Assembly (NCBI GenBank): GCA_008921705.1 | Contig: VFFE01007257.1 | Coordinates: forward strand, 431,948-495,947 | Reading direction: 5' to 3' | Length of the DNA stretch: 64,000 nt | From: Burhinus oedicnemus | Taxonomy: Eukaryota; Chordata; Aves; Charadriiformes; Burhinidae | In this document: one piece after another, positions 4,442 through 43,818 of the stretch | Position numbering within the stretch: the stretch's first letter is position 1 | How the letters are laid out: each line of letters begins with the position of its first letter | Translations under genes and position numbers: made by a program | Notes under the pieces: generated by a model | What the model saw: only the letters and a program-made list of their open reading frames with translations | The model's database searches: none | What the model was told of the DNA's origin: nothing

Positions 4442-7400
4442 ACTGAATCTGTGCAAACTGAAGATCAGCCCATGGATGAAGAGGAGAAGATTTCTGCCTT
4501 CCGGGCTGAAATAGTTGCTCATCAACACTTTCTATTCCAGCAAGAAAACCTCTCTGAGGAAGCCAGTTTGCAATTCATTGGTTGCAAGTAATCTAGCTAT
4601 TAATCTGGCTCAGCCAGTAAAATCCAACCTAAGTTCGTAAGTATATCCAGAGAATGCTCAAGCCTTCTGTTGTGGTCTGCGGACAAAATTGGACTTGAGG
4701 CCTTGACTGATTCAAACAAGCTGGATTCTGGGAATGACTGACCCAACAAGCACAATTGCACTCCGACCATCATGGGTTCAGGCACAGGATGACCAAAGCT
4801 GACCTCACTACTACTATGAGGTCCAGCAGCAGAGCTTTAATAGAAACATTGCTTGTGCTGTTGTCTCCAGGATTGGTCACTTCAGGGTCAGTTTCTTTTC
4901 TGCCTACCTGATTGCAAATGTGACCGTGCTCACAAAGCAAAAAGACAGGCAGTATGTATGTCACCTTCAATTCAAGGCTCTCTTCCTGTCAATGGTAACA
5001 ATAAATGTTCCTAAACGGGATTTGCTGTTCTCTGTCTTGTGGCTGGCTAACGTCAAGTGAACACACTGCAGAACAGCAGTGGGAGCACAGGTGCACAGTC
5101 TGATATAAGCTGACACAGGCAGGACGCAGGAACAACCACAAAACCACGGATGAAAGGCCAAGAACAAATTTAATCTTGATACCTCGTGAACCAGGGGATC
5201 TCCGAAGCAGCACCTGGGCAGATGCATGTAAGTGGGGGATGCAGGCACCGCAGTGCGAGAGAGTCCTTATTAGCAAGAGTCCTTGTTAGCGAGAGAGTGA
5301 GAGCTCAGACTTGCTGTTCTCACCTGTATTTCAAGGGTTCAAACAGGCATCGTTTTCCACTGTGCTTTGATTTTCTCCAACAGCAGGGCAGGAATCTCAA
5401 GCATGTTCGATAAGGTGCCCCTGAGTCCATCATGGACCTATGTTATCGAAGTGCAGATGTTCTACTTGTCAAGCACGTAAGACTAAACAACACTTAGTGT
5501 GATATATGTTTTCCAGCACCCCACATGCGAGTCACTGGAGTGTGTTTACAATCCTCCTTGCCAATCTTCCGTTATTTTCCCACAAATAGTATCTCTAACT
5601 TTAGCAGCACATTTGCCCTGGCTGGGTAATAACCATTGACTGAACTTTGTATAGCAGGAGCATGAAGATGCTATCACACAATACAGCACCACTGCTGCAT
5701 TTCATTTTTAGTATGTATAACATTTAAAGAAAAAGGTCAAACTTAACGAATTTCTGCATTATAAACTCCCTCTTGCATATGTTGCTCTATACTGCAGTGC
5801 TTCACGAGGGTTTTGAAAGCTGGAGGAAATATACATTGAAATGGTATGATTGCTGTAGTTGTTGCATTTGTTGGAGCACAGAATAGGTATAAAGTACCAG
5901 TTCATCATTATTAGGTAGTCAGTGATGATTAAGAATTTCATATTACAATTATATTAACTCTTAATTTCAGAAAAAGCTTGCTATTTGGCCATTTGTGCTG
6001 CCACTAGAATGCTCAGATTTCATTCAAGGGGAACCCCATGGCTGTAGAACAAAGATTATCCTGAATCTGAAGGAAGACCAAAGAGAATATTTGGAAGAAA
6101 GGCAAATCAAAGAAATTGTGAAGAAGCATTCTCAATTCATCAGCTATCCAATTACACCCTTTGTAAGTGCCTTGTTTGAGATGCTAATAGTACATGCTTT
6201 GAAACATTAGTTGCATACCTAATGTCCTTGCATCATTCCCAGATGCTACTAGTATAACATTAACTAAGCTGTCTTTGTACTGCTAGCATTAACATTTACA
6301 AGAAGGAATCTACATAATTTCTTGGTTTATTTTCCTAATGATCTCTTTAAGAGTACTATCTACATAGGGTAGAGTTATACCACATATCAGTCAAATCTAG
6401 ATGCCGCTCATTCACCAACCCAGAGGTTGTCTTATAAAGCTAACATTTATGTTAGTGAATATAGTAAGACACAGTTCATGCTTTTGTTAAAATCTGGACT
6501 ACTTGACAATGAAAATACATGTTTGTAGCTGAAGATCCTAATTATGCAGGTGAAGCTATAAACTCCAGATCAGTATTTTATATATTTTATACTGATATAT
6601 CCTAAAGTTGTACATTTGGGGCCAAAGAAATCTCCTGACATATTTAGATAGGCTTCTGAGAAAGGTCTGGTTGGCGCTGACTAATTAGTAATTCTGGCTT
6701 TTAAGCCAGAATTATTACGCTCTAGTTCCAAAACTGAGAACAGATGAGTGGAAGGCAGTTTACAAAGGTACTTTGAATGCCAGGTATATCAGTATTGTTT
6801 CATGAATGAATTCTACAAAACTACAAAGCAGAGTTGGAAATGCTTCTTGTATGACCTATAATGACCTTTACTCTTAAAATAGCAGTGACATGCAGAGAAG
6901 TCAATCAAAATGGACATAACATGCCAATTCAAGAATGTAATAAAAATGCAAGTACAGAAGTTTCTAGACTAAAGAATGGCCTGTTGTAATTTTGTGTCTC
7001 GGACAACTCAGGAGAAGGAAGCCAAGTCATCATGGTTATATTTGGTATATATTCAGAACTGTACTTCTGTTAGATGAAACAAACTTGGAACAGTTCTACA
7101 GAACTACAGGTAAGAGAGAGATTTCATTTTGAACAAATGGTCTGAGAAAATATGATTGTAGGTAAGTCATTAGAAAGAACAGCTATGCCCTGAGGAAGAA
7201 AAGCTGAAAAATCCCTTCTTTTACTATTCCAATCCTTTACTGCCCCTTCCTGCAACTTAGCTTTATAGATCTACTGTGAAGGACAGCAAGAATAAGACAC
7301 TGAAAATGGACTCTGTCATCAGGTTTTTATAGTTTCATTTTATAATAAAGAACTTTTCTGGTTAGAGTGAACTTTCTGCTTATATTCTAAACTCTAGACA

Positions 7401-8710
7401 TTTAAAAAGTAACTTGAATTTGAAAAAATAAAGGTACTTTCACTATTCCAGACATAGCTTATTCAAATAAAGTTGGAGACACAGTTATCCTGGGCTGTCA
7501 GCATCTGAAACAGTTTGAAGTTTATCAATCCAGGAGTCAATGCGACTCCCACCCAGCTGAAAGAGCCATTCTGGAGCAGTTTTCCTCAGTCCTGTTTTGT
7601 TTTGTCAATGGTGAAAGAAAAAAGGCAGAAATCTCCTGGCAAGTATTAACCAGCACCACTCAGATTAAGAAATAACCTGGTGACTTCTAGTAACTCTAGT
7701 CTGTCCTACTTTTATAATGTAGAGCAGCTGCATTATACTGACATGCATATTAACTGGCTAAGAATACCCTCAGCTCAGCTGACTGCAAAGCAGGATTTCA
7801 GTATAAACAGCCAAGTTACTTCAGGAGATTTGCCTCAGTATGGCAGGAAGCATCTCTTTGAAAGAGATGAAATCCGACTTTCCCTCTAATTCACTATGCC
7901 TGGTTACTGAAGCCTACAGATAGATTTATATATGATTAATCAAGTATTTATACAGCTCTTGACAAAATTTCTTAAAGTACCTACTCCTAATCAGCATTGA
8001 TCAGAATTATCCTACTGCTATTATCCTTTTTTCAGCATTCTTTTGTGGATAGAAAGCTAGGATTTAGACCTCTCCTGGTTTTTGACAAGCAATGAATCTT
8101 TTGATCTGTCTGACAGGAGGAAAATAACATTAAACTGTGCCTAAGCAGAGTGTTCATCATGGATAGCTGTGCAGCCTTAATCTGTGATTATCCGAAAGTA
8201 CTCCATAATTTTAGTATCTTGTTTTTTGCTTAACAGTATCTCTCTAATAAAATGAAAGTACTGTCTGAAATATTAAAAAAAAAAAAAAAATCTATCAACC
8301 ATGTGCTAAAGAGTCTACCCAGAACATATGGACAGATTTAAACTCATTTCTTGCCTTTTCCTTACAAGTATAGAGTGCTAAAGTAAAGACTATATCCTGT
8401 GTTTGAAATACTAGAAAGAATCAACTTCACGAACATCTATTTTAAATGCTAATAGTCGCCCTTCCTGAAAAATGCGGAACCTGAACTTGCAGATTTTTTT
8501 AAGTTCCTATGACTTCTAAACCCTTTGTTGAAACATGTTTCACGATGAAATTTGAAACTTCTAGGCATGTGGCACATTCATAGTATAGTCCAGTGTGTAC
8601 TGAATTCTGAATAGCTGACTTTAAATATTTCTTCACAGATATTGCAGCAGAGCGGAATTACGAAGATGACAAGACAAAGTATAATAATAAAATTCTTCAA
8701 AGTTTTTCTT
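4442..8710 (+). pseudogene. Unprocessed (duplicated) HSP90AA1 pseudogene
   Basis: Degenerate counterparts of HSP90AA1 exons occur in order and in the same orientation. Coding exon 1-like sequence is at about 4442-4592 (ESVQTEDQPMDEEEK, with an internal deletion). Exon 2-like sequence is at about 4678-4966, with deletions and an early stop. Exon 3-like sequence is at about 6029-6162, still open, with an intact GTAAGT donor at 6163. Exon 5-like sequence is at about 8036-8195, with a TTTTCAG acceptor and stops. A weak exon 6 remnant is at about 8636-8710. A possible trace of exon 4 lies near 7262-7310. The intervening non-coding DNA has intron-like spacing, and there is no poly(A) tail, so this is a tandem gene duplicate and not a retrocopy. 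Exons from coding exon 7 onward were not found. Confidence 0.85.
6029..6162 (+). pseudogene. Best-preserved pseudo-exon, HSP90AA1 coding exon 3 counterpart
   Basis: This block reads through without a stop in the frame of HSP90AA1 exon 19663-19796 and keeps the sense of [20 protein letters not shown] as [20 protein letters not shown], ending in YPITPF. It has the same length, 134 bases, as the functional exon and is followed by a consensus GTAAGT donor. The acceptor side has lost a clear AG at the homologous point. Its relative intactness compared with its neighbours suggests fairly slow or recent decay, but by itself it encodes only a fragment of the ATPase domain. Confidence 0.85.
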
Positions 8711-8761
8711 GACCATTAGAAGGAAAGAAGACAAAAGAAGTTTTGTAAGCAATTTTCCAGA

Positions 8762-12200: not shown

Positions 12201-15200
12201 TGCAAATGTATATGGAGAACAAGTACGGGACTCATCCTTAGGAAATTAGCAAATGCAAGATTGAGGCCCATGCATTTAGTGCAGCAATGCATCTAACTTC
12301 TTAGCATGTGTTGTCGGGATGGAACAACAGAGAAGTGGGCCTGTATGAACCTCATGAGGTTCAACAAGGCCAAGTGCAGGGTCCTGCACCTGGGTCAGGG
12401 CAACCTCCAGTACCAATACAGGCTGGGGGATGAAGGGATTGAGAGCAGCCCTGCCGAGAAGGACTTGGGAGTACTGGTGGATGAAAAGCTGGACATGACC
12501 CAGCAATGTGTGCTTGCAGCCCTGAAGGCCAACCGTATTCTGGGCTGCATCAAAAGAAGCATGGCCAGCAGGTCAAGGGCGATGATTCTGCTCCTCTACT
12601 CCACTCTGGTGAGACCCCACCTGGAGTACTGCGTCCAGCTCTGGAGCTGTCAGCACGGAAAGACACAGACCTGTTGGAGCGAGTCCAGAGGAGGGCCACA
12701 AAGATAATCAGAGGGCTGGAGCACCTCTCCTATGAAGACAGGCTGAGAGAGTGGGGGTTGTTCAGCCTGGAGAAGAGAAGGCTCTGGCGAGACCTTATTG
12801 CAGCCTTTCAGTACTTAAAGGGGGCCTACAGGAAAGATGGGGACAAACTTTTTAGCAGGGCCTGTTGTGATAGGACAAGGGGTAATGGCTTTAAACTAAA
12901 AGAGGGAAGATTCAGACTAGATATAAGGAAGACATTTTTTATGATGAGGGTGGTGAAACACTGGAAGAGGTTACCCAGAGAGGTGGTAGATGCCCCATCC
13001 CTGGAAACATTAAAGGTCAGGTTGGACGGTGTTCTGAGCAACCTGACCTAGTTGAAGATGACCCTGCTCATGGCAGGGGAGGTTGGACTAGATGACCTTA
13101 AATGTCCCTTCTGACCCAAACTATTATATGATTCTATGAAGAGTTTCTGGTTAAAGAAGACCTGGTTCTTCAACATTTGACTCAAACCTGAATTTTCTGA
13201 AAGCAAAAGTCACTCAGATTCTGACAAGAAAATGGCAAATCAACTATCAGCCTAAGCTTCAAATTTGAAATTAGAATTTAATATTGTGGTTGTTGGGGTT
13301 TTTTACCTTTGCATTTACAGTAATGTTTGAAGTAGTAAATCGTACTGAATAAATGGCAGTTGCTCCATGTTATTTAATATTGTATAAATAGAAAAAATGA
13401 AATCTCATGTAACCATCCCTCAGACATTGGCTACAAGTTGTTACAAAAAATGGAAGACTGTTTTTAGTCTAATTTCCCAAGGAAATGAAGAACATGCAAA
13501 AATGTGGTTGTTGTCCATCAGTCCCTCCGTAATAATTTGGACCTATTTAACCAATTCAATCAAAGTTAACAAAGGAATAGAGATCACAGAGATATTAAGG
13601 TCTACAAAAATCAATAGGCGTGCTCTGGTTGCCTCTTTTGAAGGAAGGGGCAGGGAGAATTCAGCTTTATCCTCTCCGTTTGGCTGGCCTAACAGCTAGG
13701 AGGCAACGGCTAGCTCTTCACTGACCACACCTGTGTGCACCAGCTGTAGTACGTAGTGCTTCTCGCCCAGGCGGAACATTAGAGGAAGACAGATGAAGGA
13801 TAAATGTGTTTAGGACAATGAGGAGAGGGGTCAGGGGCGTCTAGGGGATATGGGAGGGAACAAGTATGTATGAATGTAGGACTTGGAAAATATCAGGCTT
13901 CAGCATTTCCCCTGTTAATAAAACTACTTGTTAAAATATGGAAGTATATTAATCTCTTGGTTGAAAAATGGAACTATTTTGCTCAGGTTTTCCTTCCAAA
14001 TTAATTCTGACAGAAACGAAGTCTGGAACCAGTCTTTTCGGCCTAAAACTGAAGCGATACGAAACTGGGATCAGTTAAAATAGAGTAACCATAGGAACAA
14101 AGTGCCTACCTTCACTTGCCCTCGCTCCATAACAGAACAAAAAGAATATAGATTATTCACAAATCATGAAGAAAATACTTGTTTTACACAGGCACACAGG
14201 AACTTGGGTTGAGCAGACCTGGGAAAACTTAGATGGTTTGGTATGAGAATACTTTCTCCTAGTGCACTTGTCAAACTATTTTGACAAAAGACATCAGTCT
14301 GCTTTTGAGACATATGCAAAACCTTCCATAGGTTATCACATGCTTCAAATTACATATATCCCTAAGTCTGAATGACTGAATCCACATTAGTCAAGACATT
14401 AGAAAGGAAAAGATTTTCTTTAAAGAACATCTTGAATATTTTGATAAAAGCAGCAGTCTTAAAATTTTGGACATCTCAAAAGCAGAGCACACAAATAATT
14501 TTACTGGAAAAAAATGCTTGGACAGATTTCCATAAATTGCAATAGCTTAGCACTTCTCTAAAATACAGAAGTTATTTTGACCCAAATAAATGTTAGAAAA
14601 CATTTCAGTTAATGGAATCTGAGTGTAAGAGGGTTTCAGCCAGAAGGCATGTCCCATAGAATTTATATTACACCAGGACTATTTTTAATCTAAGAAAAAC
14701 ATGAAAGTTACATCGTTATGCTTGGGTATAACTGCCACACTCCATTAGGATAGTGGTCAGCAGCCCACTAAGCTGCTTTACGGAAGCAGACAATCAAAGC
14801 AGCTGTCGGACCATTGAAATCATAGTCGCTACGCAAAGAAAGGAACACGGTGCTTATTATTTTGTAGAAGGGTGTGTGTTTGAGAGAAAGGAAAAGAAAT
14901 GCATTGAGAAGCACCACAAAATCAGACTCGAAGAAGGTACAGAAAACCACCAGCCAGAGTAAGCATGAAAAAGGTGACCCAGACAGAACCGCAGAACTTT
15001 CTAGGCTGAGCGTTGGCTGAAATCCAGCTTTTTCAGTGACTTAGAACTGTGAGCAAATAACTTCGCTCTAACAGTTCAATTTCTCCCGTGTGCTGAGCAG
15101 CAGCTCATCTATACACCCTCTTACTTTATTGTTGACACCACAATTAATTTTTCCTTCTAATTAAAATAACCCGCAGTACCCTGTATTTTGGCCAGCTGCT

Positions 15201-16731: not shown

Positions 16732-17576
16732 NNNNNNNNNNNNNNNNNNNNNNNNNNNNNNNNNNNNNNNNNNNNNNNNNNNNNNNNNNNNNNNNNNNNN
16801 NNNNNNNNNNNNNNNNNNNNNNNNNNNNNNNNNNNNNNNNNNNNNNNNNNNNNNNNNNNNNNNNNNNNNNNNNNNNNNNNNNNNNNNNNNNNNNNNNNNN
16901 NNNNNNNNNNNNNNNNNNNNNNNNNNNNNNNNNNNNNNNNNNNNNNNNNNNNNNNNNNNNNNNNNNNNNNNNNNNNNNNNNNNNNNNNNNNNNNNNNNNN
17001 NNNNNNNNNNNNNNNNNNNNNNNNNNNNNNNNNNNNNNNNNNNNNNNNNNNNNNNNNNNNNNNNNNNNNNNNNNNNNNNNNNNNNNNNNNNNNNNNNNNN
17101 NNNNNNNNNNNNNNNNNNNNNNNNNNNNNNNNNNNNNNNNNNNNNNNNNNNNNNNNNNNNNNNNNNNNNNNNNNNNNNNNNNNNNNNNNNNNNNNNNNNN
17201 NNNNNNNNNNNNNNNNNNNNNNNNNNNNNNNNNNNNNNNNNNNNNNNNNNNNNNNNNNNNNNNNNNNNNNNNNNNNNNNNNNNNNNNNNNNNNNNNNNNN
17301 NNNNNNNNNNNNNNNNNNNNNNNNNNNNNNNNNNNNNNNNNNNNNNNNNNNNNNNNNNNNNNNNNNNNNNNNNNNNNNNNNNNNNNNNNNNNNNNNNNNN
17401 NNNNNNNNNNNNNNNNNNNNNNNNNNNNNNNNNNNNNNNNNNNNNNNNNNNNNNNNNNNNNNNNNNNNNNNNNNNNNNNNNNNNNNNNNNNNNNNNNNNN
17501 NNNNNNNNNNNNNNNNNNNNNNNNNNNNNNNNNNNNNNNNNNNNNNNNNNNNNNNNNNNNNNNNNNNNNNNNNNNN
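16732..17576. other. Assembly gap (run of N)
   Basis: An 845-base block of undetermined bases with very GC-rich sequence on both sides, as often happens over avian CpG-island promoters that are hard to sequence. Whether 845 is a measured or estimated size cannot be told. Confidence 0.99.
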
Positions 17577-18522: not shown

Positions 18523-24552
<6,030 letters not shown>

Positions 24553-28100: not shown

Positions 28101-29117
28101 ACTTTTCTCATACCAGGATTTGCTTAATAGTGAGTGCACCCTAAAGAAAGAGTGACCTGAATTTCAGATCTATTTCTGCTACTTCAGTATGTAGTGATCT
28201 TGTTTAGATGTTCTTTATTTTCAACAAAGCAAACCTTACCTAGGAAACACCTGAATAAGTCATACTGGGCAATGAAAAGTGATTTCAGACAAAGATTTGG
28301 TTTTGTGCTAGTAAATTGTATAAAACATTGCATTTTTTAAAATTAAGGCTAAAAAAAGAAGCGGTGAATAAAACTCCATCCAAAGCATGGCCAGTCCAAG
28401 GAGGAGCGGATGTATCCGGGGAGCGTTCAGTATCCTTAGCAGCAGCAGTGTGAAGAAGAGATGGAGACACGCGTTCTTTTGTACCAAGGTGCTGTTTTGA
28501 TGGGGTGATGAGGAAGAGGAGGGTGCGGGGCAGAGGGTGTTTGGCTTTACACTTCACAGGGTTCTCCTGATTTGAACCGTTAGCCAAGCATTTCACTATT
28601 AGTGCTTTAAAATGCACAAGCATGGTTTTCAAGTACATGTCACTATGTCATTTTTTTCTTACCGATTTATGACTGGTTGTACACGATACTGTTGAGTTGC
28701 CTTTCTGTACTAGAAAAAAACGTATTCCATAATAGTTTTTAAAGCAAAAAAAAATTTTTTTTGGGGTGGAAGAGGCCTTTTCAAGTACTCTTCCACTAGT
28801 TTTTCCTGAAGCAGTTAAAAAGCTGTTAACAGGCTTCTGTTGCAAAGTAGAAGTTAGATAAAAGCACGTGTAGAGCGATTTATGAAACGAGAGTGGTGAC
28901 CGTGTCTCCTGCAAAGTGCCACGGGGGGTTGTGCTCTACTCGCTGAAGTGCTCTCCAGCATTCTTGCTTTGCTTTTGCTTGCCCCTGTGGCAGGCAGTTT
29001 TGGGCGCTGGAAGTCTGCGGGAAACCTTCCACCCAGGTGTCTCAGTGATTGCCTTGCTGGGAAATGGACCTGGCAGCACAGAAGTCATCTTGCTCATTTG
29101 GAGTAATTTTATTTTAG
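25196..29117. other. Intergenic DNA after HSP90AA1
   Basis: No exon is supported with confidence. If the orphan exon at 29118-29552 belongs to a working gene, its promoter and first exons should lie here. The only candidate I can point to is 28998-29036, with a pyrimidine-rich acceptor and a GT donor. AT-rich, with no CpG island visible. Confidence 0.55.
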
Positions 29118-29552
29118 TTTTTAGATACTTCTTGTGGCTGCTCAGAAGATGGATCACTTCATGCAGACTGCACTATGAATTTCACTAGTAGTAAACATCA
29201 GAAAGGAATTAAAACTCTACTGATGCACAGCATGCCAGAGGCAGTAGATCTGGGAGATGTTTTCCATTTAGAAGATCCACAACTTATTCTTACACCTGGA
29301 AACTCAGTCCTGCCAGTTACAGAGTCCCACATTTATATGGATATTTATATGGAACCAGAAAATTATTTTCAAACGCCAGTGGAAATAATTGGTAAGGAGA
29401 CAGCTGCTTTTCCATCAAAATTAGTGGAATCATATGAACTGTCTCAAAAATTGCAAACTACTGCAGACTCCGAATGTCCTTCACCCATGGAGATCGAGCC
29501 TTCAGGATCTGTGGGATTTCCGGATAGCTGCTCTGCTGTGGTGGGACAGTGA
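29118..29552 (+). CDS. Orphan terminal exon paralogous to the unrecognised gene's last exon
   Basis: An open exon of 435 nt (144 codons plus stop) begins at an AG acceptor preceded by the same bases (TTATTTTAG-like) as the acceptor at 40990. It opens FLDTSCGCSEDGSLHADC against FLDPYDGDSEDASIHSDC. Over the first 22 codons, 12 residues agree and about 70% of bases match. Beyond that the two proteins diverge: this one is Met/Leu/Glu/Pro-rich (SMPEAVDLGDVFHLEDPQ) and lacks the basic C-terminus. AATAAA follows at 29604-29609. A possible preceding exon at 28998-29036 (within GCTGGAAGTCTGCGGGAAAC) resembles the exon at 40715-40774 only weakly. No first exon was found. It is either the last exon of a diverged tandem paralogue or a relic held open by chance. 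Confidence 0.6.
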   Translation, partial: FLDTSCGCSEDGSLHADCTMNFTSSKHQKGIKTLLMHSMPEAVDLGDVFHLEDPQLILTPGNSVLPVTESHIYMDIYMEPENYFQTPVEIIGKETAAFPSKLVESYELSQKLQTTADSECPSPMEIEPSGSVGFPDSCSAVVGQ

Positions 29553-30054
29553 TGTGTGCGAACAGAGAGCAAACATTTCCAATTCTCTAATGCACTGGTG
29601 AAAAATAAAGGAAAAAAACCTTCATGCTACCTACAGTAGGTATGGCAATAATAATAATAATATCCACAATACTTGGTTGGTCCTGTCATTAATGTACTGT
29701 GAAATTGCTGAAGTTATCCTTAAGGTTCCTTTGTGCAGTGGTTGAAGTTGTGTAGTAGAATTAAAGCTTCAAAACCATCGTTGTTACAGATAGGGCTGGG
29801 TCCTGCTTACTTCATGAAATCCCGTGGTAGATCCATGCTGAACCTGTACACCCAGGCAGCTACAACTAAGGGCCTTGAAAAATTTAGATGATTATACTGT
29901 CCCAATTATTGCTGTCTCTCTTAGGATCTTAAAAGGAGCGCTGGTTGATGGGGTTGGGAAAGCAAGGCTTCTGGGAAGAGCCACCCCCTCCTTCAGACTT
30001 CCTGCTGTTTTTCTAGGGAAACAGGAACACAAGTTCAGCTACATATGGCAATAC

Positions 30055-30080
30055 TTCTTGTTTTGTTTTGTTTTGTTTTA
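30055..30080 (+). repeat. TTTTG microsatellite
   Basis: About five consecutive TTTTG units (…TTGTTTTGTTTTGTTTT…) in intergenic DNA. A related imperfect TTCTG/TTTTG run lies at about 36217-36246. Confidence 0.85.
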
Positions 30081-32042
30081 ATTAAGAGTAAAGCAGGGGA
30101 TGATGTGGTGGTATATGTATGACTGGGATATTCTTGTTGCCTTGTCTCCCAGGTTGCTCCTGAGGCATTTGAGAGGCTACAAAGACAGTGTGCCAACTAT
30201 TGCTCATTTTCTTCAGGTTCTTCAGTGGATGGTCTAGAGACTTAGCCATGCTAATCCCTTCTGGGGCTAATAATTTAAATGCATTTGCTATCTTTTAGCA
30301 ATTTGGAACAATATACTTGATTTTTGTGATTTTCTAAAATGTAGATATTAGTTTTGGTCAGAGCTTATATATGTTGAGACAGATCTGAAAATGAAGCATT
30401 AAGGAATTAGGAAATACACCTCTTGGTCCCGTGGTATTCTGTCCATGTGGTCATAAAAGGTACCTGGAATTTGACAGTGCCCTGAGAGAAGGAGAAATGT
30501 TTATTTCCCTACTGTAAGTTGTGCAAATATGTATGTATACAGCTGCTTCATTCGCAAGAGCTCCCAGCTGACATATGAACTCTTATTTCCAGCACTCTCT
30601 CTTGTAAGAGGTGGCCAAATCACTCATGTTACTCCCTATCTTTTTAAAGAGCAAAACTCCAGCTAAAGATCCCAGGCTCTGTCCCTGAAGCAACACTGTG
30701 CGAAGTGTAAAGGGACCAGGTCCGAACGCAGTGGGGCCAGTCCTCATACCCACCTGCCATGGAGCCTTGTCAGTCCTGTCCTGCTTGAGAGGAGAGCACG
30801 AGATACATTTCCTGAAGGTACAACCACACAGGATTTCAGCAGCTCCAGGACCAGGGTGTTACAAAGACGCTCCGGGAAGCTAAGCCAAACATTAAGGCTA
30901 TTGCACAAGGCAAATCCCTAAGGGGAGGGTCATGCTAGCTCGGTGAAGACATTCCTTGCAGATGCTGACTTTGACTCTTAACGCTGGCAGCATGTACTGT
31001 AACACTAGTGACCAGCTGCACCATTTCAGTGTGAAATTAGATCCAGAGCAGCAGACGATACAGACTGTAACATTCATTGAATGGAGTCACGAGAATTAAG
31101 AGTTTTCCTCCTCCTCAGTTCTACATTAGTCTCCTGTGCTTTTCCTCCAGTCTGCTTTCCAGTGAGCAATAAGAAAGCAAGACAAACCCTATAAACACCC
31201 GTGATTCCCATGCATGGTTTGGCCAAAAATGATTTCCAGGCTTTCTTTTTCTGAAAAATGAGATAATAGATCTGTTCTGTATATTCATGCCACTCTTGCC
31301 TGGCAGAAGAGGTGAATTTTGGGATCTGTGGAATTTTGATACCTCTAGGTAGAAACGGGGTGCATCCATACCGTCTTGTCCCCTGAACACTGCTGTCACC
31401 CTAAAGTCCTGTTATACCTGTAGGATCCTACAGACCCCAGCCAAGCCAAAGTGAGGGAGCTCTGTAATATTAAACTGAAAAGCTTTCAAATTTGGGCTGC
31501 TGATAACAAGGCAGTTCCAGCATGAGTCTAGGCTGAGCACAAACGCTTCACCTGGAGCTTTTTGGTCTCTACTGAGTGTATGTATCAAGCTTACTGCATG
31601 GTCACTGGTGAAAGGGCTGTGTACACTCCTGAGGTAAAGGGACTTTGAAAGGTTTGCTAAAACTTGCTAACCAGTCAGAGAAGCAGCTTATTGCAAGAAC
31701 TCAGCTTAGCCCTTGCGCAGTTTACAAAGCCCCCATTCAGCTTTTATGCTGTCCACTCTGCCTGCCTAAACAGCAGTATAACCACAGTATTTAACAGAAA
31801 AGGCTGAAACTGCAAACAAGCGGCTGACTGATGTATTCCTCAAGTGATGCTAATGCATCCCTGGGTGTTCAGTTGGCATGAAATCCACTGGAAATAGCAA
31901 CTAAAATATGCAGTATTGATCTCCACAAGCCATGCGCGTATCCAAGCAAGAACTCCACATGTCAGAAAGCAGGTGGCTTTCATTAAATAGGACACCTAAG
32001 TTCTGCAAAACATTAAAGTAAAATTAAAGTGCAGCAGAACAT

Positions 32043-32530
32043 ATCATAGAATCATAGAACACCAGGTTGGAAGGGACCTGAAGGATCATCTGGTCCAGCC
32101 TTTCTTGGCAAAAGCATGGTCTAGACAAGATGGCCCAGCACCCCATTCAGCTGAATCTTAAAAGTGTCCAATGTTGGGGAATCCACCACTTCCCTGGGGA
32201 GATTATTCCAATGGCTGATTGTTCTCACTGTGAAAAATTTTCTTTGTGTCCAATCGGAATCTCCCTGGGAGTAACTTGTACCCATCACCCCTTGTCTTTT
32301 CCATGTGACTCCTTGTAAAAAGGGAGTCTCCCTCTTCTTTATAGCCACCCTTTAAATACTGGAAGATGGTGATAAGGTCTCCCCTAAGCCTTCTTTTCTC
32401 AAGGCTGAACAAACCCAATTCTCTCAGCCTTTCCTCACATGGCAGCCTTCCCAGTCCTTGGACCATCTTTGTGCCCCTTCTCTGGGGCCTCAGAAGTCTC
32501 CAGAGTAACCTTTGTTCTTCACCTGATAGG
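32043..32530 (-). mobile_element. CR1 LINE 3' fragment, minus orientation
   Basis: The plus strand begins with TCATAGAATCATAGAACACC, GGTTGGAAGGGACCTGAAGG and ATCATCTGGTCCAGCC, the reverse complement of a CR1 3' tail. The minus strand encodes remnants of the ORF2 end ([37 protein letters not shown]) in broken frames. The 5' limit near 32530 is approximate. Confidence 0.9.
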
Positions 32531-35500
32531 GATTAGATCACATCGGAAAAGGAGGTGCCTTTGGTGTGGATGTACGTGTGGGGATGCCGGACGGAGCTGC
32601 ATTATCCGAATACTTCACCGCGTTACAGCCTGCAGAGCACACTGAGAAATGAGTCCAGCAGCCAGCCTGCGGCTCGTTGGGTGGGTGGGGTGACGTGCGT
32701 CGGTCTTCAGTTCGACTTCACAGCCTGCTTTCTTCAGATGATGCAATTACTGATGAAACTGGGGTAAAAGGAGGAATGTACAGATGCCATTAAAAAGAAG
32801 CAGCATGTTAGTCACGTATAACTGGAGTTTTCGGAAAGGGAGCCTGCATGTTCCCACTTTGATCACCTTCCTTGCCTCCTCAGTATCCTAATTACAAGAC
32901 CCCAGCCTTGTACCTCAGGAAGTGGCTGAGGGAACGGAGGCAGCCAAAATGCCTTACTTTTACAGCCTCAAAAGACAGAAGAGGATGTGGATGCTCCAGG
33001 GACGTTACTATAAAATAATTCATCTTCAGAAGAGCATCAGCCTGTCAAAGAAATCTATGGGTGGCTAAAGAGCTGCATTTCAAGAAAGGCAAAATATTTC
33101 CTCTCCAGTACTCATGAACAAACGTGGAAGTAAAATGGCAATAGTCCAGCCAGTCTTTAAAAATGAAATTCCCCCTCCAAATGCCAGCACGACTTCCTGG
33201 GTTATTAACACTCTGCTACAGCGAGATACTTGGCTTTATTTTTGTTTTGAGAAAATTCGGTACCTTTCATCTTCCCTGGCGAACTGTGACATTCCAAAGG
33301 CAGATTAAAGAAAACCACCATTACACCTCCATTTTGTGAATGGGGAAACAAGGTTTAAAAAGGGCTGAAGTGATTTTCCCAAGGTCAATGATTCCATGCA
33401 TCAAGACACAAAGAAAAGTCAAGAACCGAAGCAAAAAACTAAGAATCTCAATGGCTCCTTACGGTTTCTGTACCATGTCACATCCCATAATTTGGGTATG
33501 TTTCCTCAGGAGCATTCCGAAGGGCGGCCTCTGAGTATAGCACTTCTGTACTCACAGACTGGAGACACCAAGGACATTTCTTTGCCTCCCACACCCTTCT
33601 GTCGTGCATCTCAGGGAGAAGACTTCAGGAAGATAAGAACGGGATGTTGTTATGTGGAAACAGCTGTGAGTACAGGAATTTAAAGGCTGCCTTCATTCTT
33701 TCTTTTTGGTTTTGTGAAGGATTAACAGCCATATATTAACAATAATAGGTGCAGTAGCGCTTTTTGAGGTAAGCTGTGGGAATGAGGAAGCTGCAGCAGC
33801 AGTTGTAGTTTGGCCTTACTTCCAGGCATATACTGCACCGTATGTACAAGTACATATGAAGTAAAGGATAAAGCCAATTTCTGTTCTGCAAAACAGCTGT
33901 AAACTGTACTTTTAATGTCTTTGCTCACAGTTTGATTTAAATGAGAAGCGGAGTCTAAAAGATTTCCTACACCGCTCACAGGCAGAAACACGCAGTGTGA
34001 GAGGAGACCTTGCAGTTTCTGCAGCACCTCATTTCTAGCTTCCCACAGCACTCTCAGGCTTGACTGAAGTGTTCTTGATTAGCGTTCGGCAGTGAGTTGA
34101 CCCAAATGGCCAACTGGCTGCAGATCTTCATTCTCTGATCTGCACTTGCTTCTTCTGATGAACTTAATTTGGATTAAGTATCTCGTTTCGATTGTTCCCT
34201 ATTGCAAATGAAGGAAAAACCCTTTCACCAGTACAATCCCATCTTGCATTTTTAAAAACATGTTTCATGCATGAAAGACACGATTTCTAATGTCTAAATA
34301 GCACAAGCAATGCTGGTGTTGGCCTTCATCGCGATACAGCAATTCCAACAGTACTTGAGGATCAAAATTTGGAGATAGGCATTGCCCTCCAAAGACAACT
34401 CATAGTAAGACAGGCGTGTGCTTCTGTCAAGCTCTCCGCCAAAATGATTAGAAAAATCTCTGCTTGTTCTGATCCTCCTGGAGGTACCCTGCAAATAATC
34501 TGCCTTGTCTTTGACTGGCAGCTGGGGGGGCATCAGCAGCAGGAGGAGATGAGCACCTACAGCCATAGAGCCACTGGGGACAGGTGGTGGCTGTCAGGAG
34601 GCAGGGTGACACTGGTCTGAGAGTAAAGGGAGAAAAAAGCACTAGAAAATGTCGTCTGGGCTCTTTGGGCAGGGTGGAAACCTGCTCTTATGGAAAGGGC
34701 TTTAAGGAAAAAGATCTTGCTTCATCTTGGCCTTCAGAGATCAGCAGCTCATTCAGGTTTTTTTTCTTAAGAGATCACCTTCTCCTGTTCCCTTGCAGAA
34801 AAAGTATTACTTGCTCGATTGCTTTGGTTTCAGCCCCCAAACCCCAAACCACAGCTGGAGCACCCAGATGGCTGCAGAGCTGCATGTGGAGAGCCAAAAG
34901 CTTCATCCCTTTGCTTTTCTTATGGTGGGAGGTTTGCTGTCAATCAGTTCCCTGTTCACAGCTCACAGATGCAACCTGCAGCTAAACAATAATAATTTCC
35001 ATTGTCTTATAGGAAGTATTCAAGATTATTAATTAATAATTACAGATTAACATAAACTGCCACCTAAATCTGCTCCCAAAGATGGCAGTCCTGGCTGCTC
35101 TGCAGGCAAGAAGTGAGCCATGGCCCTTCCCTGATGGACGTGCAAACTCGGACAGCCTCTGCTCCAGCTTCAGTGTCTTCTCTGCAAGAGCTGAGCTCTG
35201 CTGCCCCCAGTCCCAGAGCTTTAAGGTTTTTTTTCATCTTGGACAAATGAGTTTTCTACAGTTTTTCCTTCAGCACATTTCACAGCAGACAATCTAGTAT
35301 GTTTTGTCTTTGTATGTAAAGTCAACTGTATTTCAAATGGGGGGGGAATTAATTTTTTAAAGAATTACAGAGATGCATGTGGGATTTATTGGATGGGAAA
35401 TGATAATGTAGAGGCTGAACTGATCAGCTGAGAGAGGCTTTCACAGCACTGACCTCCCAGGGGCACCCTGTGAAGCAGTGAGACAGCAGGGACCTCTGGG

Positions 35501-37461
35501 GAAGATCAGAAGGAGCGATGATGCCTTTGAGAACAGGAAAAGAAGTGTATTACCTACATTCTCAGCTGGCCAGAAAGCCTGGACTCCAGGGAAACTACAG
35601 CTACCTGGGGCTGGCGCAAGGTCTGTGCAGGGTCAAGGGCTTTTTCCTAGAGCAAGAAGAGCCAAAGCGCCGAGCAGCGGTACAGTAAACGATGGCAATA
35701 AACGGCTCAAGCAAACATTTCTGTGCCTCCATAACCCTCTGGCCACCCTCCTTGTTCATACAGCACCAACCGGGTACGGCCGAAAGCTGCCCTGCCTTGG
35801 CAATGGCATTACATGTGTGCTTTGGAAAGTGGAAACCCAAAATATTCCTTGGAAAACTGTTGTCTGACTGTACCTCTGCTGCCCAGCCACATCCCAGATG
35901 GGTGCTGGCAGCGGGTTCATTGTGCAAACCTTGGCCTAATCCCAACCTTAAAGTCACCATCTTGTCTGTAATCCCTTGCAGACCAACAGGTCTCTTGAGT
36001 CCCAGATGCCGGGGCCTTGTTGCTAACAGCTGGTGCCTGTAGAACATCAGTCGCTAGTTTTGGACGGGCTTTTGTGGGATAATGACTCCAAGCCATGTGT
36101 TTGGATTAAGGATGGTGATTGCATGCACTCATTCAACTCAGCTGGCACTGCAGGCCCTGACACAGTGGTTCTTAGCTCCCACCTCAGTGGTGGGAGGTGC
36201 TGTTGGATAAGACTTTTGTTTGTTCTGTTTTGTTCTGTTCTGTTTTGAAAGTGGTTGGAGAATTCAAAGAGGGGGAAGAACCATCAGACAGTCCGGGCCT
36301 GGGTAGAGAAGGTAAGGAGATGGAAAAGGAGGTGTCTGGGAAGAAAACAGATCTATGCGATGGGCTGCAGCTCAGCTGGTGGCAGAAGTGGAGTGGAAGG
36401 TTTGTGAAGTTTGTGAGCTGTTCTCACTGTCACCTCCTCTCACTGTCACCTCCCCAGGGGCTTACTCCTAGTGCCTTTTCAGAGTGACAACCTACTGCTG
36501 GCTTCAGAGTGAGATGTGGGTTTTATTGAGGCTTTTATACTCATCTTAAAATTAATCTAAAACAATAGTACCTTCTGCATTGTGCAGGAAGATGCAAGAA
36601 AGCCAGATAGGAAGGAAATAATGAGAGGAAAAGGAATTTTATTTGAAAAAGTAAAAAGAGTTTCTCATTTCCCTATAAAAAGGAGGAGAAGAAGGGGAAT
36701 GGAGATGTGGCCTTTAAAGGGTTGAATCAGCTCTGCTTCTTTGTGAAAAATGGATCTGATTCATAGTTCTCCAGTAAATCTGAAAAGATACTATTCCTGG
36801 TATTTAAAAATAGCAAAATTGTTGTTCCTTTTCTCAGCGAGTGGTGGCAAGTAAGGGTGAGGGTATCTAAGTCCTCCAAGTCACACATGATGGATTGGAA
36901 GTGACATGTTTAGGAAGCATTGTGTGTCCAACCGCAGCTGTCCGTCCAACAGACAGCAGATCGTCTGCTGCTGCAAATGGCAGGAGGAAACATCTTTTAA
37001 TCTCCCGGCTGTCTCTGGAGGGGGGAGGTGTTTTTCCCTTTGATTATTGATTATCTTCTGTCAGCCTGAAGGTTGTGTGAATGAAATGGGGCTACAGAAA
37101 ATACATTGGCAAGAGTGGAGAAGGAGCGTTGCATCTCTGGCCACCAGGCCTTGCAAACTCAACTGAAGATGTGTGTGCATGTCTGTGTATACGCGTGCTT
37201 TATATATATACACTTAGAAAAATGTAATGACTAGAGGACTCAAGCTACCGTGTTATTTGGGCATATTTCTGCTGTAGACCTCCACACAGTCAGCTCTGGT
37301 GGACCCATCAGGAAGAGCAGCTTGGAGCCTCCAGCAGCGGCACGAAGTGCTTTCACAGGAGGACTTTACTCTCTTTTTCCTTGCTTCACTCCCATCTTTT
37401 TTTTTTTTGAAAGAGTGAAGTGTCCATGCTGAGGGAGCTGAGCAGGGCATGTGTGGGAGGT

Positions 37462-37501
37462 GGGGGCGGAGGTGGGGCAGCTAGGGGCCTGAGCCTATAA
37501 A
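37462..37501 (+). promoter_or_regulatory. GC box and TATA box of the unrecognised gene
   Basis: GGGGGCGG at 37462-37469 is followed by TATAAA at 37496-37501 in a locally GC-rich stretch, 32 bases before the proposed start codon at 37533. A transcription start 25-30 bases after the TATA box would leave almost no 5' UTR. Either the leader is very short or the start lies slightly upstream. The arrangement supports 37533-37596 as the first exon. Confidence 0.55.
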
Positions 37502-37532
37502 GCTGGAGGAGGCTGAAGGTGCTGGGAGCAGG

Positions 37533-40500
37533 ATGGCCTCAGCTGAGAAGAGGCAGCGGCGGAGGAAGAGGCATGGGGCTGGGCAGCTCATGGAGGGTAC
37601 GGAGAGAAGGGAGCACCCTGCAGCCTGTAGAGAGCCCTGTTGGGGGTGGGGGGTACAGGGACTGAATGTCAGGGTGGGAGGGCTGACTCTCAGCATGGCT
37701 TTGGGTTTGTCCCTCTCTAGCCTGGTATGATGTCTTGAGTACAAATAACTCTTTGAGGGTTCAGAAAACCTGTAGTGCCTTAAAAAAAGGGGGGGGGGCA
37801 AAATCCACTTTGCAGAGCATAAGATTATTTAAAAAAAAAAAAAGATATTTTTCTCATGCTGCATGAAGGAACAGTGAATCTAGTCACGGTTTTGGTAGAA
37901 AACAGCAGCAGCTTCTTCCTTGTTTTTAAACAGAAGCTGTCTTTGAAAACTTAACACAGACTTTGTGAAGGGCTGACCAACCTTTCTAGCACGAGGGGAG
38001 TCACCATGTCTGGGCAATTTATTTACGAGAAGGTTTTTCTCTAATGTGCTTTCCTACCCTCTGCACGTTTTAGTAGATGCTCAGGAAATGAAGGACTCTG
38101 TTAAAAGCCCAGACTACATAGAAAGACTGGCGTGTAAATACATGGTAACTTTTTTCTAATTGCTTCTTCTAAATTATATTTTAATAGGGAGATAGAGAAA
38201 GTGTTAGTTGCTTTGTCATTAGCCTGATAGTGTAGCTAGCTGTGCTGGAAAAGAGTGCATGAAAAACATGTGTGAATGATTTGATTCAAGTGGTGTCACC
38301 TGCAAAGAAACAAACAGGGAGGGAGGGAAGAAGCTATTCCACTCCCATGCTACCACCTGGGGAATAAGGGGGCTGTTTGTCAGGTCTCTGTAGCAAAAGC
38401 TTTGGAAAAAATGAGGATGTGGTTTTAGTCATTTACCTGCAATTACATTTCTGAGATGTAGGCCCACCAAAAGCAAAGAAACAACCAAAACCTCAGTGCA
38501 AATCAAAAAAACATTTTGTGAAGTTATTTACAGACCTGGAATTACTGTTCCCAGCAAGTGCAAGGCATGTTCTGGATAGCTTCCCATTGTATTTCTTTTG
38601 GGGGAGGGAGGGAAGACTTCTACTTTTCCCCCATGTCTCACTTGCACAACCCAACCAGCACCACAAATGTGGAATATTTGGAAGGATGAGCTGGCTTCAG
38701 ATGGGAAAGCTTTGGAGAAACACAGTATCTACAGTTTGTACTAGAACTTCAGCTTCAACCTGAAGCTGGAGTAACTTCTGCTTTGGGGACCATCTCTTTC
38801 CCTTCCTCTGCAGCAGAAGTGCATAGTAGAGTCAAGTACGGAGTCCGAATCTGAATCCAGCGCAGAGGTAAGAACTGGCTCTCTGAAGCGTTTTGATGGT
38901 GGTGGGATTCCCTGTTGGGTATCCAACTCTTCCTTCACTCTCAGCAGGGAGAGTCAAAGGGGTGGTTGCTGGGGTTGTTGGTTTTGTGACTGTAAAAGGA
39001 ACGGGGAGGGGGGGGAGGAACACCAACACTATTCTATCCATGAGGCTCTTCCTCATAACCGTTATTAATTTTAGCAAAATTGATTCTGGCGGGATGAGGT
39101 AGGAAAGTGTCAGTGGTTTAGGTAGACAAATGTAGCATAAGCGCTTATCCACTAAGAAGTGCTTAAAGCTGAGCTGGGCTGTTTCTGGCAGTTAACTTTC
39201 AGCAGCTCGGGGCCAACGGGATTTCCACGGGTCTGAGTGGAGAACCTCTATCTTCTGACTGTCCATTTTGGATAAGATTAAGAGAGCAGCTCTGTTGCTG
39301 TGGTAGTTACTTATGAATATTGGTAACTTCCTGAACATTGTTCTGTCAAACCATTATGTTTAATGTTGATGAAAAAAGACCCGATTCTGGAGTGGAGAAC
39401 TAAATACTTAATTTCTGGGTAAAAGTCTTCAGAATTGATGCTCGCTGTTAGTCCATGCTGTGCTCTGTGGCTTAGAGAAGCTGTCAGGAACCTGCCACCA
39501 CACCTTCCAGAAAGCATAGGAGAAAGCTGGAGTTGTCCGTGGTCTCCTTCTGGGAGAAACAAGGCTGGAAGTCCAGTTGTCTGGCTGGATGCTGATGGCT
39601 GGGCTGGGTAGAAGGGGGGCTTGCCTGGACAAAGAGCTGGGTGCTTTCACCAAGGGTGCCGAAGCAGGTGCCAGGCCAGGGCTGGGGGATTTCTGGGCTC
39701 TTTGGAGAAGCAGAAGCTGCTTTTCTTCATTGCCCAGCACTACCCACTAGCTTTGCGGGGATGTCTCTGTGTCCTTGAACTAGCACAAGAATGCACAGTC
39801 ACAAATGGGCTTGGACTTCAGCTCCTCCACTAAAGCCTTCAGGTTCCTGTTGTGAACAGTCCAGGGTTCCCAAGCCCTGCTTTGCATCAGCTGTGCCCAG
39901 ACTCTCCTCCTTCCCCACTGGAAGCAGGCACAGCAGTGACTGGCAGCTTGTTCTCCAGGCAGCTGTGGTGGATCCTTCTAAAGGAGCACTTTCCTTGCAG
40001 TAAACATTTTTCCCTTTGTGTGACTGCTTTGTACCTGTGGCTTGCTTTTAAAAGGGAGTCTCCCTACTTAGCTTGCTTGCTTTTCTTTTTTAATAGACCA
40101 AGCCTATAAACACTATTTCGGAATGATGCGGTTCTCAAGCATAAATTCATGAAGAAAGTTGTTTACACAGGTCTGGACAAGTCCATGTGCAGTCACATGG
40201 GGAAAAGAAGCCTGAAACCTCAGTGTTACAGCAGTGATATTGAGACCAACTGAAAGAACTTGGTTTGGCTGTGTTAGTTACAGAACTCTCCAAAGGACAG
40301 CAAATTCGTAATCCAAGTAATAAGGAAGAATTTCAGATCACGCCTATGTAAAAGAACAAAAAGGGACCTCAGTAGGAGGGAAGCTCTCTAAACTCTACAA
40401 AACACTCTGTCTACTATCGATTAAATGCTGATTTGGTTTACTTTTCTGGTGGTAAGGTATACAATGACTCATTGTTCTCTTTACAGCAATGTTTTAAGTG

Positions 40501-41523
40501 CAGTAAGACTTACCGTAGCTCTTGCCAGTCCCTCTGTTTTAGGCTAACTTTACTAGGCCTTTAAAAGTCAGACTGAGATACACTTTCTACTGTCTTTCAG
40601 CAAGGGATCAATCTGGCTTCCTCTTCTCTAGGATTTTTACCTCCTCTGGTTTTACTTTGATCAATAGTTCATAGCAAGGTGCTTTATAAACCTATGTTAA
40701 CTTCTCTTAAATAGGTCACGCCCAGCCCACTTGCTGGAGGACTCCGGAAAGCGAAGGACTCCAGGGGACTGCAAGTAGGTGTGGCTATTTTGCAGCAGCC
40801 TGTTTTCGGTTTAGCACCCAAAAATTAAAATATAGGTGACAATGTGTGGATAAACAGAAAAACTTCCACAGTAAGTCTGTGACTTAGGCTGTAAGTGGTT
40901 TTAAAGCTCATGCTTCATGTTGCTTCTTATATTTTTTTTTTTTATAGACAAATAAGCATCCATGATATTTACAGAAACCTTTATTTTAGTTTTTAGATCC
41001 TTATGATGGTGATTCAGAAGATGCATCCATTCACTCTGACTGTAGCTTGAATTCTTTAAATAGTATAAAAGTTGCACCATGGGCAAACAGTGCCAAAGCA
41101 ATGGCTTTGGAGGATGCTGATACTTCAGAAGGAGAGTCCTTCCCTAAACTTCCAGACTGTCTCTGCCCAGAAACAGAAGTCAGTGAAATTCAGACAGCAA
41201 ATGACTGTAAAGCACCTCTGGAACTTCCTAGCCAAGAGAAGGATTTCCCAGGAAGCCCATTCCAATCATCTGAACTGAGTAGAACCACAGAAGCATTTAC
41301 TTCCACGTGGCTGACAACTGACCATTCCTTACTGATGAATATTAACTCTTCAGCCTCTGCAGATCTCCCTGCAAGCCCAGGTGACAGTGCTCCACAACCC
41401 ATACTAGCAGCTGACTGTGATGGCACAATGGCCAAACAGACCCTAATCAAAAGAAAACAAGGGATTCCCATTCCAGAGGGTGCTAGTGAAAAACTAAGAA
41501 GAAAGAAATTCCGTGCAACTTAA
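37533..41523 (+). CDS. Unrecognised five-exon gene between HSP90AA1 and DYNC1H1
   Basis: I do not recognise the family. Proposed exons: 37533-37596, 38074-38144, 38814-38867, 40715-40774 and 40990-41523, all with GT-AG boundaries and matching phases, 783 nt in total (260 residues). The N-terminus is strongly basic (MASAEKRQRRRKRHGAGQ, a likely nuclear or nucleolar signal). Next come KSPDYIERLACKYM, then a Ser/Glu-rich acidic stretch (ESSTESESESSAE), then SPLAGGLRKAKDSRG. The large last exon starts FLDPYDGDSEDASIHSDCSL and is Ser/Pro-rich and probably disordered. The C-terminus is basic (LIKRKQGIPIPEGASEKLRR). There is no signal peptide, transmembrane segment or catalytic motif. An AATAAA follows the stop at about 41535. 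A small nuclear, phosphoregulated protein is a guess from composition. The exon chain is inferred and the last exon is the surest part. Confidence 0.72.
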
Positions 41524-41535
41524 TTTGAGGTATGA

Positions 41536-43818
41536 ATAAATGACTGGACAAACTGTTTGCTCTTAAGAATGAACCTGGTAGAGACTTCTTTTGCAGATTG
41601 TGCCTGAACCAAACAAGTTTTGAACAAACTAACTCAAGTCTGTTATAAATGCAGTTGCCTGTGTACTGTAAACTTTGAGATCCATCTGAAAAGATGGAAT
41701 CAACTAAACAAGCTTGTGTGGCAACTTAAGTGGAAACTAGCCAAGGTATGTCCACACAGTCACAGCTAAGCTTTAAGGCTGGGTGCTACTTTGGTGCCTG
41801 ACTCCTGTATCTAGAACCTGGAGGCACCTGCTCAGTTTCCAGTGTAACTTCAAAAAAAACGTATTACAAGGGTTTGTTGAGGAGGGAAGGAAGAATGCAC
41901 TGTTGCAATTAGTTTTAAATAGCTATAGCTTACCTCACACCTGTTTCATGTCACTGTTTGGCTCTTCATATGTCTGAGCTACTGTATAATAGCTGTATGG
42001 TGAATCATCTTACACGTTTGACTACAAACTGAACTGCTTAAAGTTGAACTGCCTGCAGCTGAAGGCAGTCTAGCTTTTTTTTTTTCTTCAAACAGGGAGA
42101 AGTTGGCTTGTGCTATTAATATATCTGTCCCTGTTTTGAACACTGTTTTAGGTATGCAGCCTTTGTATACCTGCCAGTTTAGAATTTACAATGTGAAGTT
42201 GAACACATGAATTGAAAGCACTCTTCCTCAGTGAGAACAATCACTTATGAGCTGATGGGACACCAGGTAGTCAGCAAAAAATGTATTGCTGATCTCCCTT
42301 TCCTGTACAATAATTTCTTTTATCACCTTTACAGCCTGGGTAGTCCATCTATGTGGAAGGGGAACTACTATCCATAAAGGTGTAATGATGGGTTCAAATA
42401 TGTTGGTACTAACCAGTTGTTTAAAACACAGCATACTGAAATAAATAATCCATGAGGGGAAAAAAAAAATACAGGAACAACCAGGAGACAAATAGGTTGA
42501 AGGGTAAGCCATGTGGGACAGTATATATTCAGACAGTCGGTTTGGGAAGCTCTAGTACCTCAAGACGTATTTGAGACTTTCTTGATCTCATCATTAGTAC
42601 TTGCTAATAAGTGGAATTGGTTTAACAAGATTTTTATAGTAGCTGTAAGCTACTGCAAGCTATAGTGCTGAAAGAAAGGCACATTCAGCTGAGCTGCTAA
42701 CAGCTAGAACTTGGACACATTTAAGTTAATACTTCACACTGCAACTGGAACATACCATGAGCAGGAGGAGGTCTACTTCCCTACTGTACAATGTATTTGA
42801 AATGATCCCAGAGGAAATGACTATAAGTTCCAGATACTAGTACTGCGGTGATGGAAAAGGAAAGCAACTCATAAAAGCTGAAAGAGAACAAGGGCATAAT
42901 TTATGGTTAAAACTGATCTTGGATGATGAGCGTAATTCCTATCTCTGTTCCTGACTATTGGATATGAGAACTACAAGCACCAGACAAAGATTACATGATG
43001 CACTGGTCTGGCATTTGTTCTTTGTAAGGTAATAAAACCAGCCAGGACACTTCAGCCTGCAGAGATTAACTACACAAAACAGTATGGAGAGGGTAGATGG
43101 CAAGAATTCTCTTTTAGTAAGTAGTAGGCATCTGCCAAAACAAGCATGTAAGGCAGGCTCCAATAACAATTCTTCCTCCCAGCACAGGCCTGTGCTGTAG
43201 AACCACTTATCACAGAAAAAATAGAGTTGATGTACTTCTTTCATAGAGGAAATCACTGGAAGGAAGGAGCTCCTGAGATTTCCAGTTTGAGACTGAAAAG
43301 CTATGCACCTGTCTTTACTCTTCATGTGCACCTTTGAACATCAGAGAGGACAGCTGTTCTCACAGGATGGTCAGAAGGGTAGAAATGCTTACCAATGAAT
43401 TTAGGATCAGAGAACTGGAACTCTCATCTCCCCTGATTTGGTAACAGTTGGTCACATGTGAGTCTCTGAAATATTCTAACTTCTTATTTAAGCATTTAAT
43501 AAGACATGAAACTGAAGGCTTATTTCACCATAAAAGCAGCTTAAGAAAGAGGAAGCCCTGTGGTCAATAGGACAAGAAAGTCTTGTTTAGGATACTGTAG
43601 CTTCTAAATGCATCTCAGTAGCTGTGTAAACACATTACTTCAAGCAAGAGCCAGGTCATTGCAAATAATTCATGCAATAGCACAGCAGATAACATCAGGC
43701 TGTGTGTTTTTCTGCACTGAAGGCTTACATTCCAAGTTTCTTGTTACTGCAGGTTAGCTGAACCAGCTGCTGAGTGAGCTGTGTGAAGGTCAACAATACG
43801 CCTGAATACTAATTACTT
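41536..43818. other. Intergenic DNA between convergent 3' ends
   Basis: This 2.3-kb stretch separates the end of the unrecognised plus-strand gene from the DYNC1H1 3' end on the minus strand. It is AT-rich, with no exon or repeat family that I recognise. Transcripts from the two sides converge here. Confidence 0.6.

Follow-up and report, generated by a model that had tools for sequence, protein, structure and literature searches.

An unnamed gene beside HSP90AA1 in Burhinus oedicnemus and a probable paralogous unit upstream of it

The closest described relatives of the gene treated here are known by locus labels. PMC7249449 reports that in heat-shocked mouse fibroblasts 1700001K19Rik behaves as a read-in gene at the Hsp90aa1 locus, and PMC3308053 tabulates primers for it. 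Chicken LOC423462 and other bird models deposited as 'uncharacterized protein LOC' are orthologues by sequence. No functional study was found in the accessible parts of the literature searched by gene name, and searches under the LOC names and the neighbour genes found no paper. The corresponding locus was analysed in Burhinus oedicnemus, in a window of 64,000 nt (contig VFFE01007257.1, positions 431,948 to 495,947) that forms part of a 1.17-Gb assembly. Two elements on the + strand are at issue: a five-exon gene at 37533-41523, the downstream gene, and an upstream unit composed of exon 1a (28387-28488) and a last exon (29118-29552). The sequence data support an old jawed-vertebrate gene, still without a name, that adjoins HSP90AA1 and is represented in chicken by LOC423462. 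The downstream gene is its bird orthologue, and the upstream unit is a paralogue conserved in many Neoaves. The initial annotation of this stretch had called the gene unrecognised and considered it sauropsid-retained or lineage-specific; neither description holds, as databases already list it for many birds under uncharacterised LOC labels and it has relatives in sharks, coelacanth, amphibians, echidna, marsupials and, very probably, mouse.

The downstream gene is an open reading frame (ORF) of 259 codons that stays in frame across GT/AG sites. A protein search with its 259-aa translation, which had been proposed as a 260-residue model to be compared with birds and reptiles, returned 76 homologues at E <= 1, with birds, turtles, a crocodile, squamates and amphibians among the named sources, and together with the in-frame join these bear out the five-exon gene. 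Exon 1b (37533-37596), supported by the join and by homologues, encodes the basic N-terminus MASAEKRQRRRKRHG. Exon 2 (38074-38144), placed by the join and alignment, follows a tandem acceptor, TAGTAG, and carries the helix region SPDYIERLACKYM indicated by structure prediction; exon 3 (38817-38867), likewise placed, follows the tandem acceptor CAGCAG and encodes the acidic serine stretch KCIVESSTESESESSAE. Exon 4 (40715-40774, from the join) supplies a linker, VTPSPLAGGLRKAKDSRGLQ, and exon 5 (40990-41523) contains the FLDPYDGDSED motif, a middle region and a C-terminal stretch resembling a bipartite nuclear-import signal, KRKQGIPIPEGASEKLRRKK. A poly(A) signal, AATAAA, is located at 41535..41540 (+), with a further AATAAA at 42440. 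A probable TATA box, TATAAAG, lies at 37496..37502 (+); a similar stretch is read as coding (MPIKQE...) in two turtle models, which taken together suggests a conserved core promoter at exon 1b.

Identity to the 259-aa model ranges from 82% in Bubo (over 100% of its length) through 67% in chicken (over 95%) to 50% in the turtle Lepidochelys (over 100%). The homologues are named 'uncharacterized', 'hypothetical', 'unnamed' or not at all, except one Platysternon orthologue (P0060) labelled 'ecto-NOX disulfide-thiol exchanger 1', apparently a wrong automatic name. A profile built from 18 homologues gave 217 matches, and the 120 of these that were listed add echidna, marsupials, caecilians, coelacanth and sharks/rays; no ray-finned fish and no placental protein is named among those 120. 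In an alignment of 21 sequences, V49, D85, P86, Y87, D88, G89, D90, E92, R246, K247, K259 and K263 do not vary, and both DPYDGD.E and the C-terminal KRK...EK.RRKK are present in the downstream protein of the window. The acidic motif noted by the initial annotation as the one conserved element is indeed conserved, but it is not the sole one: the helix with SSTESESD and the C-terminal basic signal are conserved in the family as well. At the Ser position of GDSED, most of the squamate rows read have Tyr and the four sharks/rays have Leu, and the window's DSEDASIHSD corresponds to DSEDTSTHSD in chicken. As the positions vary between groups, no SUMO-binding, FHA-binding, degron or histone-binding role of the acidic motifs is claimed. 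Pfam searches with 10 proteins gave three weak matches, all under the curated cut-off, and no solved structure in the PDB was matched (best E 0.4).

The relationship to mouse was examined through two primers. One 1700001K19Rik primer, tabulated in PMC3308053, translates as LDPYDGDS and agrees with the beginning of exon 5 (position 40992) in 23 of 25 bases. Among 300 shuffled primers the top score was 19, and elsewhere on the + strand the best sites, the paralogous exon (29120) and one unrelated site, scored 17. Its partner translates as PERIKRKKK, similar to the C-terminus of the family. With the placement at Hsp90aa1 in PMC7249449, the primer match indicates that the gene very probably exists in mouse as 1700001K19Rik, next to Hsp90aa1, and its read-in label would place it downstream of Hsp90aa1 on the same strand. 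Loss of the gene in placental mammals had been entertained, given the lack of any placental name among the 120 listed matches, and was dropped once the primer matched exon 5. The gene has no named domain, appears to have persisted from sharks to mouse and lies where read-through from HSP90AA1 passes.

The last exon of the upstream unit (29118-29552, +), an ORF of 144 codons, had been described as an orphan terminal exon belonging to a diverged tandem paralogue. The paralogy stands: an acceptor stretch of 19 nt, TTTATTTTAGTTTTTAGAT, is identical at both last exons, a direct-repeat search of 24600-46600 reports the two exons as its first family (74 nt, 76%), and they carry the motif pair FLDTSCGCSEDGSLHADC and FLDPYDGDSEDASIHSDC. 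The exon is not an orphan, since tblastn with a pigeon model (E 0.001) locates its own exon 1a, MASPRRSGCIRGAFSILSSSSVKKRWRHAFFCTK, at 28387-28488 (+), ending in phase 0 at the donor AAG|GTGCTG; the frame is open over exon 1a and the 144 codons. A TATA-box-like TATAAAA, which may be a chance occurrence, was read 68 nt 5' of the exon 1a ATG (28319..28325, +). At the other end, the remains of the C-terminal tail (AALLWWDSDVCEQRANISNSLMHW, then a stop) lie in another frame at 29527-29601 (+), followed by a poly(A) signal, AATAAA, at 29604..29609 (+). In a genome search the DNA of the upstream exon found only itself in the assembly.

The upstream exon ORF has 25 homologues at E <= 1, of which 17 bear bird names. 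These 17 birds are presumably all Neoaves. Sixteen of the 25 start with MA[GC]P[RK]RSR(..)CIRG, the window's version of which is at 28387-28488, and chicken, unlike the window, has no listed homologue of the upstream unit. A profile of 25 rows (the window and 24 of the 25 homologues), for which E values were computed over 150 fetched proteins, matched the last exons of the turtle Emydura (6e-25) and the marsupial Sminthopsis (P0107, 6e-14) over most of the exon, indicating that the bird exons are homologous beyond the motif. The view that the two exons diverge almost completely outside it therefore applies between the two bird copies and fails against turtle and marsupial last exons. Of DPYDGD.E only a D..CG.SED-like remnant was found in the upstream unit, and with this reduction and the C-terminal basic module missing, the unit is best classed as a diverged paralogous unit and not as a full family member.

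Exon 1a appears to be older than birds. Four marsupial models (Petaurus, Dromiciops, Notamacropus and koala; P0134-P0137) start with MADQRQ..CIREAF...GIKK.RK..FK or a near variant, and in comparisons of four birds with three marsupials all 12 first-exon pairs scored above every one of 2000 shuffles. Beyond the upstream set, the pigeons and these four marsupials, none of the 150 fetched proteins reached a score of 50 for exon 1a. Read-through models that continue as TKVLF in three birds and FKVLL in Petaurus suggest that the AAG|GTG donor is common to the bird and marsupial exon. In P0134-P0137, the first exon is thus homologous to bird exon 1a and the last exon to both bird copies; exon 1a is followed by a small GDHKKNRMEFAEGIIRE segment and then by the ordinary last exon, so that the exons for the helix and SSTESESD are left out. 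Unlike in the bird, no copied last exon was seen in the marsupial models.

The age of the copying was approached with a tree of 49 hand-picked last-exon rows (14 downstream birds, 11 upstream birds, one gecko upstream copy and others, with sharks left aside). The upstream and downstream bird copies each form a clade (100/100), the former lying outside the downstream bird clade. Grouping the upstream copy with neoavian downstream copies only was rejected (p 0.014), as was grouping it with neognath copies only (p 0.0125), both groupings having been picked after the tree was viewed and two palaeognaths being included. We read this as placing the copying of the last exon before the neognath-palaeognath split. 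Residues 1-150 of a gecko model (Eublepharis, P0104) hold an upstream last-exon copy with the C-terminal module, which scores 174 and 177 against turtle last exons (shuffled mean 29) versus 73 against its own downstream copy. Against a bird upstream copy it shows no match, 238 of 2000 shuffles being equally good, so a common origin of the gecko and bird upstream copies is unsupported by direct comparison; the approximately unbiased (AU) test does not reject it. Either squamates and birds copied the exon separately, or one old pair has diverged past recognition.

The two bird products differ in the modules that they retain. Measured as mean identity to turtle and mammal rows, the DPYDGD module stands at 0.49 in upstream versus 0.82 in downstream copies, the DVYM module at 0.39 versus 0.29 and the DCSLLMSV module at 0.32 versus 0.34, over short segments that give a mixed comparison; for the C-terminal basic module the upstream copies are unfilled (2%) and the downstream value is 0.57. 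The upstream gain in DVYM is clear against crocodile (9-13 of 21 matches versus 3-7 of 21), turtle and koala. The basic module was not seen in the six upstream rows that reach the tail (P0081, P0084, P0092, P0095, P0097 and P0098), nor in the window. This pattern fits a division of modules between the two products. Subfunctionalisation after duplication is described by the duplication-degeneration-complementation model, which the bird copies resemble in retaining partly complementary modules and from which they differ in that what was copied seems to be a single exon used by one isoform and not a whole gene. An AlphaFold2 prediction for the turtle protein from 21 sequences gave a mean predicted local distance difference test (pLDDT) score of 50.5 and a single helix at 35-45 (YVERLAHKYMR), in keeping with the disordered tails that had been suggested. 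Basic stretches at both ends with acidic serine-rich segments between them make a disordered nuclear adaptor the likeliest assignment, and the protein is probably nuclear and, by prediction, disordered.

These observations can be accommodated in a single account. The amniote ancestor would have possessed one gene with two first exons, exon 1b leading to the full protein and exon 1a to a short isoform that skipped the helix and SSTESESD and entered the common last exon, as the four marsupial models do. In the bird lineage, the last exon would have been copied behind exon 1a, so that the short isoform acquired its own last exon and became a separate gene. The DPYDGD motif and the C-terminal nuclear-import signal would have stayed with the downstream protein, and the upstream protein would have retained more of the middle DVYMxP..EII module while losing both of the former. 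The downstream product may then act as a mostly disordered nuclear adaptor, imported via its N- and C-terminal basic stretches and docking partners through the short helix and through CK2-type acidic segments centred on the invariant DPYDGDxE, presumably phosphorylated by CK2; the upstream product may be a modulator with only some partners in common. Taken whole (old gene, copied isoform exon, divided modules and nuclear adaptor), this account is judged moderately probable. The more specific proposal, that an alternative-promoter isoform became a separate gene by copying of the shared last exon alone, with modules divided and both products kept by many birds since before the neognath-palaeognath split, is put forward tentatively. 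The bird locus offers a concrete test case for the transition from isoform to gene, and the paralogue reveals modules that appear separable in loss and retention, information that may help to direct initial functional work in mouse.

A number of points weigh against this account. Compared with the usual consensus, GTGCTG is a weak donor for exon 1a, and in the window the C-terminal frame of the upstream copy is shifted and the copy ends early, at 29552, which could mark decay. Seven other groupings were not rejected by the AU test (p 0.38-0.59), so that the duplication is not placed among sauropsids and may date to the bird stem or earlier, and the two that were rejected had been selected with the tree in view. 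The DCSLLMSV segment is closer to turtle in the downstream copy, and against Sminthopsis DVYM shows no clear difference (6-9 of 21 upstream, 4-9 of 21 downstream). Most upstream rows are partial, so the absence of the C-terminal module is carried by the six rows and the window; the proteins in the databases are largely automatic predictions; motifs are the basis for both nuclear location and partner binding; and the partner mouse primer matches at best 15 of 27 bases in exon 5.

Two pigeon models (P0013 and P0025) add a further difficulty in that both place the upstream exon inside a single fused gene, as an internal exon, with an exon-1a-like start and the upstream exon joined via ATTG|GTAAGG to downstream exons 2, 3 and 5. 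The possible donor is present in the window (29391..29397, +, the exon part ending at 29391), where a similar fused frame is open with exon 4 kept. A single transcription unit with two promoters, in which the upstream exon is an alternative terminal or internal exon, would explain these models, but those upstream rows that extend past the donor conserve the ORF there, a poly(A) signal follows at 29604 and the pigeon models may be read-through products; we regard it as somewhat unlikely. Tandem duplication of the whole gene, perhaps in an early sauropsid, with later loss of exons 1b-4 from the upstream copy and of exon 1a from the downstream one, would suit the tandem, same-strand layout, and the far greater closeness of the gecko P0104 copy to turtle than to its own downstream copy is what an old duplicate would show. 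No trace of exons 1b-4 was matched in the 629 bp that separate exon 1a from the copied exon, however, nor of exon 1a in 29553-37533 (tblastn, E <= 10, which could miss short diverged exons); marsupial exon 1a already leads towards the last exon, and the gecko copy does not match a bird upstream copy. Whole-gene duplication is accordingly rated unlikely. Lastly, the upstream unit might be a decaying pseudogene in this species, as its C-terminal frame is shifted relative to other birds and, in the 17 of 25 rows that are labelled, no upstream homologue is named from passerines, galliforms, waterfowl or palaeognaths. Its frame nevertheless remains open over exon 1a and 144 codons, and the 11 upstream copies chosen for comparison, with a mean pairwise identity of 0.73 (0.46-0.90), are about as alike as 10 neoavian downstream copies (0.76, 0.62-0.86), making simple decay improbable.

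Matches to HSP90AA1 exons occupy 18553-23508 on the + strand, so that in this window the downstream gene lies 3' of HSP90AA1 on the same strand; exons on the - strand beyond ~46.6 kb are taken to be those of DYNC1H1. Exon 1a starts ~3.8 kb past the HSP90AA1 stop. In mouse, according to PMC7249449, heat-shock read-through from Hsp90aa1 enters 1700001K19Rik, and bird exon 1a would sit in a like path. Immediately 5' of the HSP90AA1 exons is an assembly gap (16732-17576, Ns), because of which any promoter or first exon there is unreadable. Further 5', the segments 4445-5168 and 8549-8761 (+) contain diverged HSP90AA1-like sequence (33-37% identity); the first spans an HSP90AA1 intron position and looks like an old retrocopy. 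The window contains 114 stop-to-stop ORFs of at least 80 aa, so ORF length alone is no proof of a gene. Two of the ORFs, at 12297-13051 (+) and 32203-32532 (-), resemble what we take to be the C-terminal part of the CR1 retrotransposon reverse transcriptase, and the latter is situated between the two gene copies.

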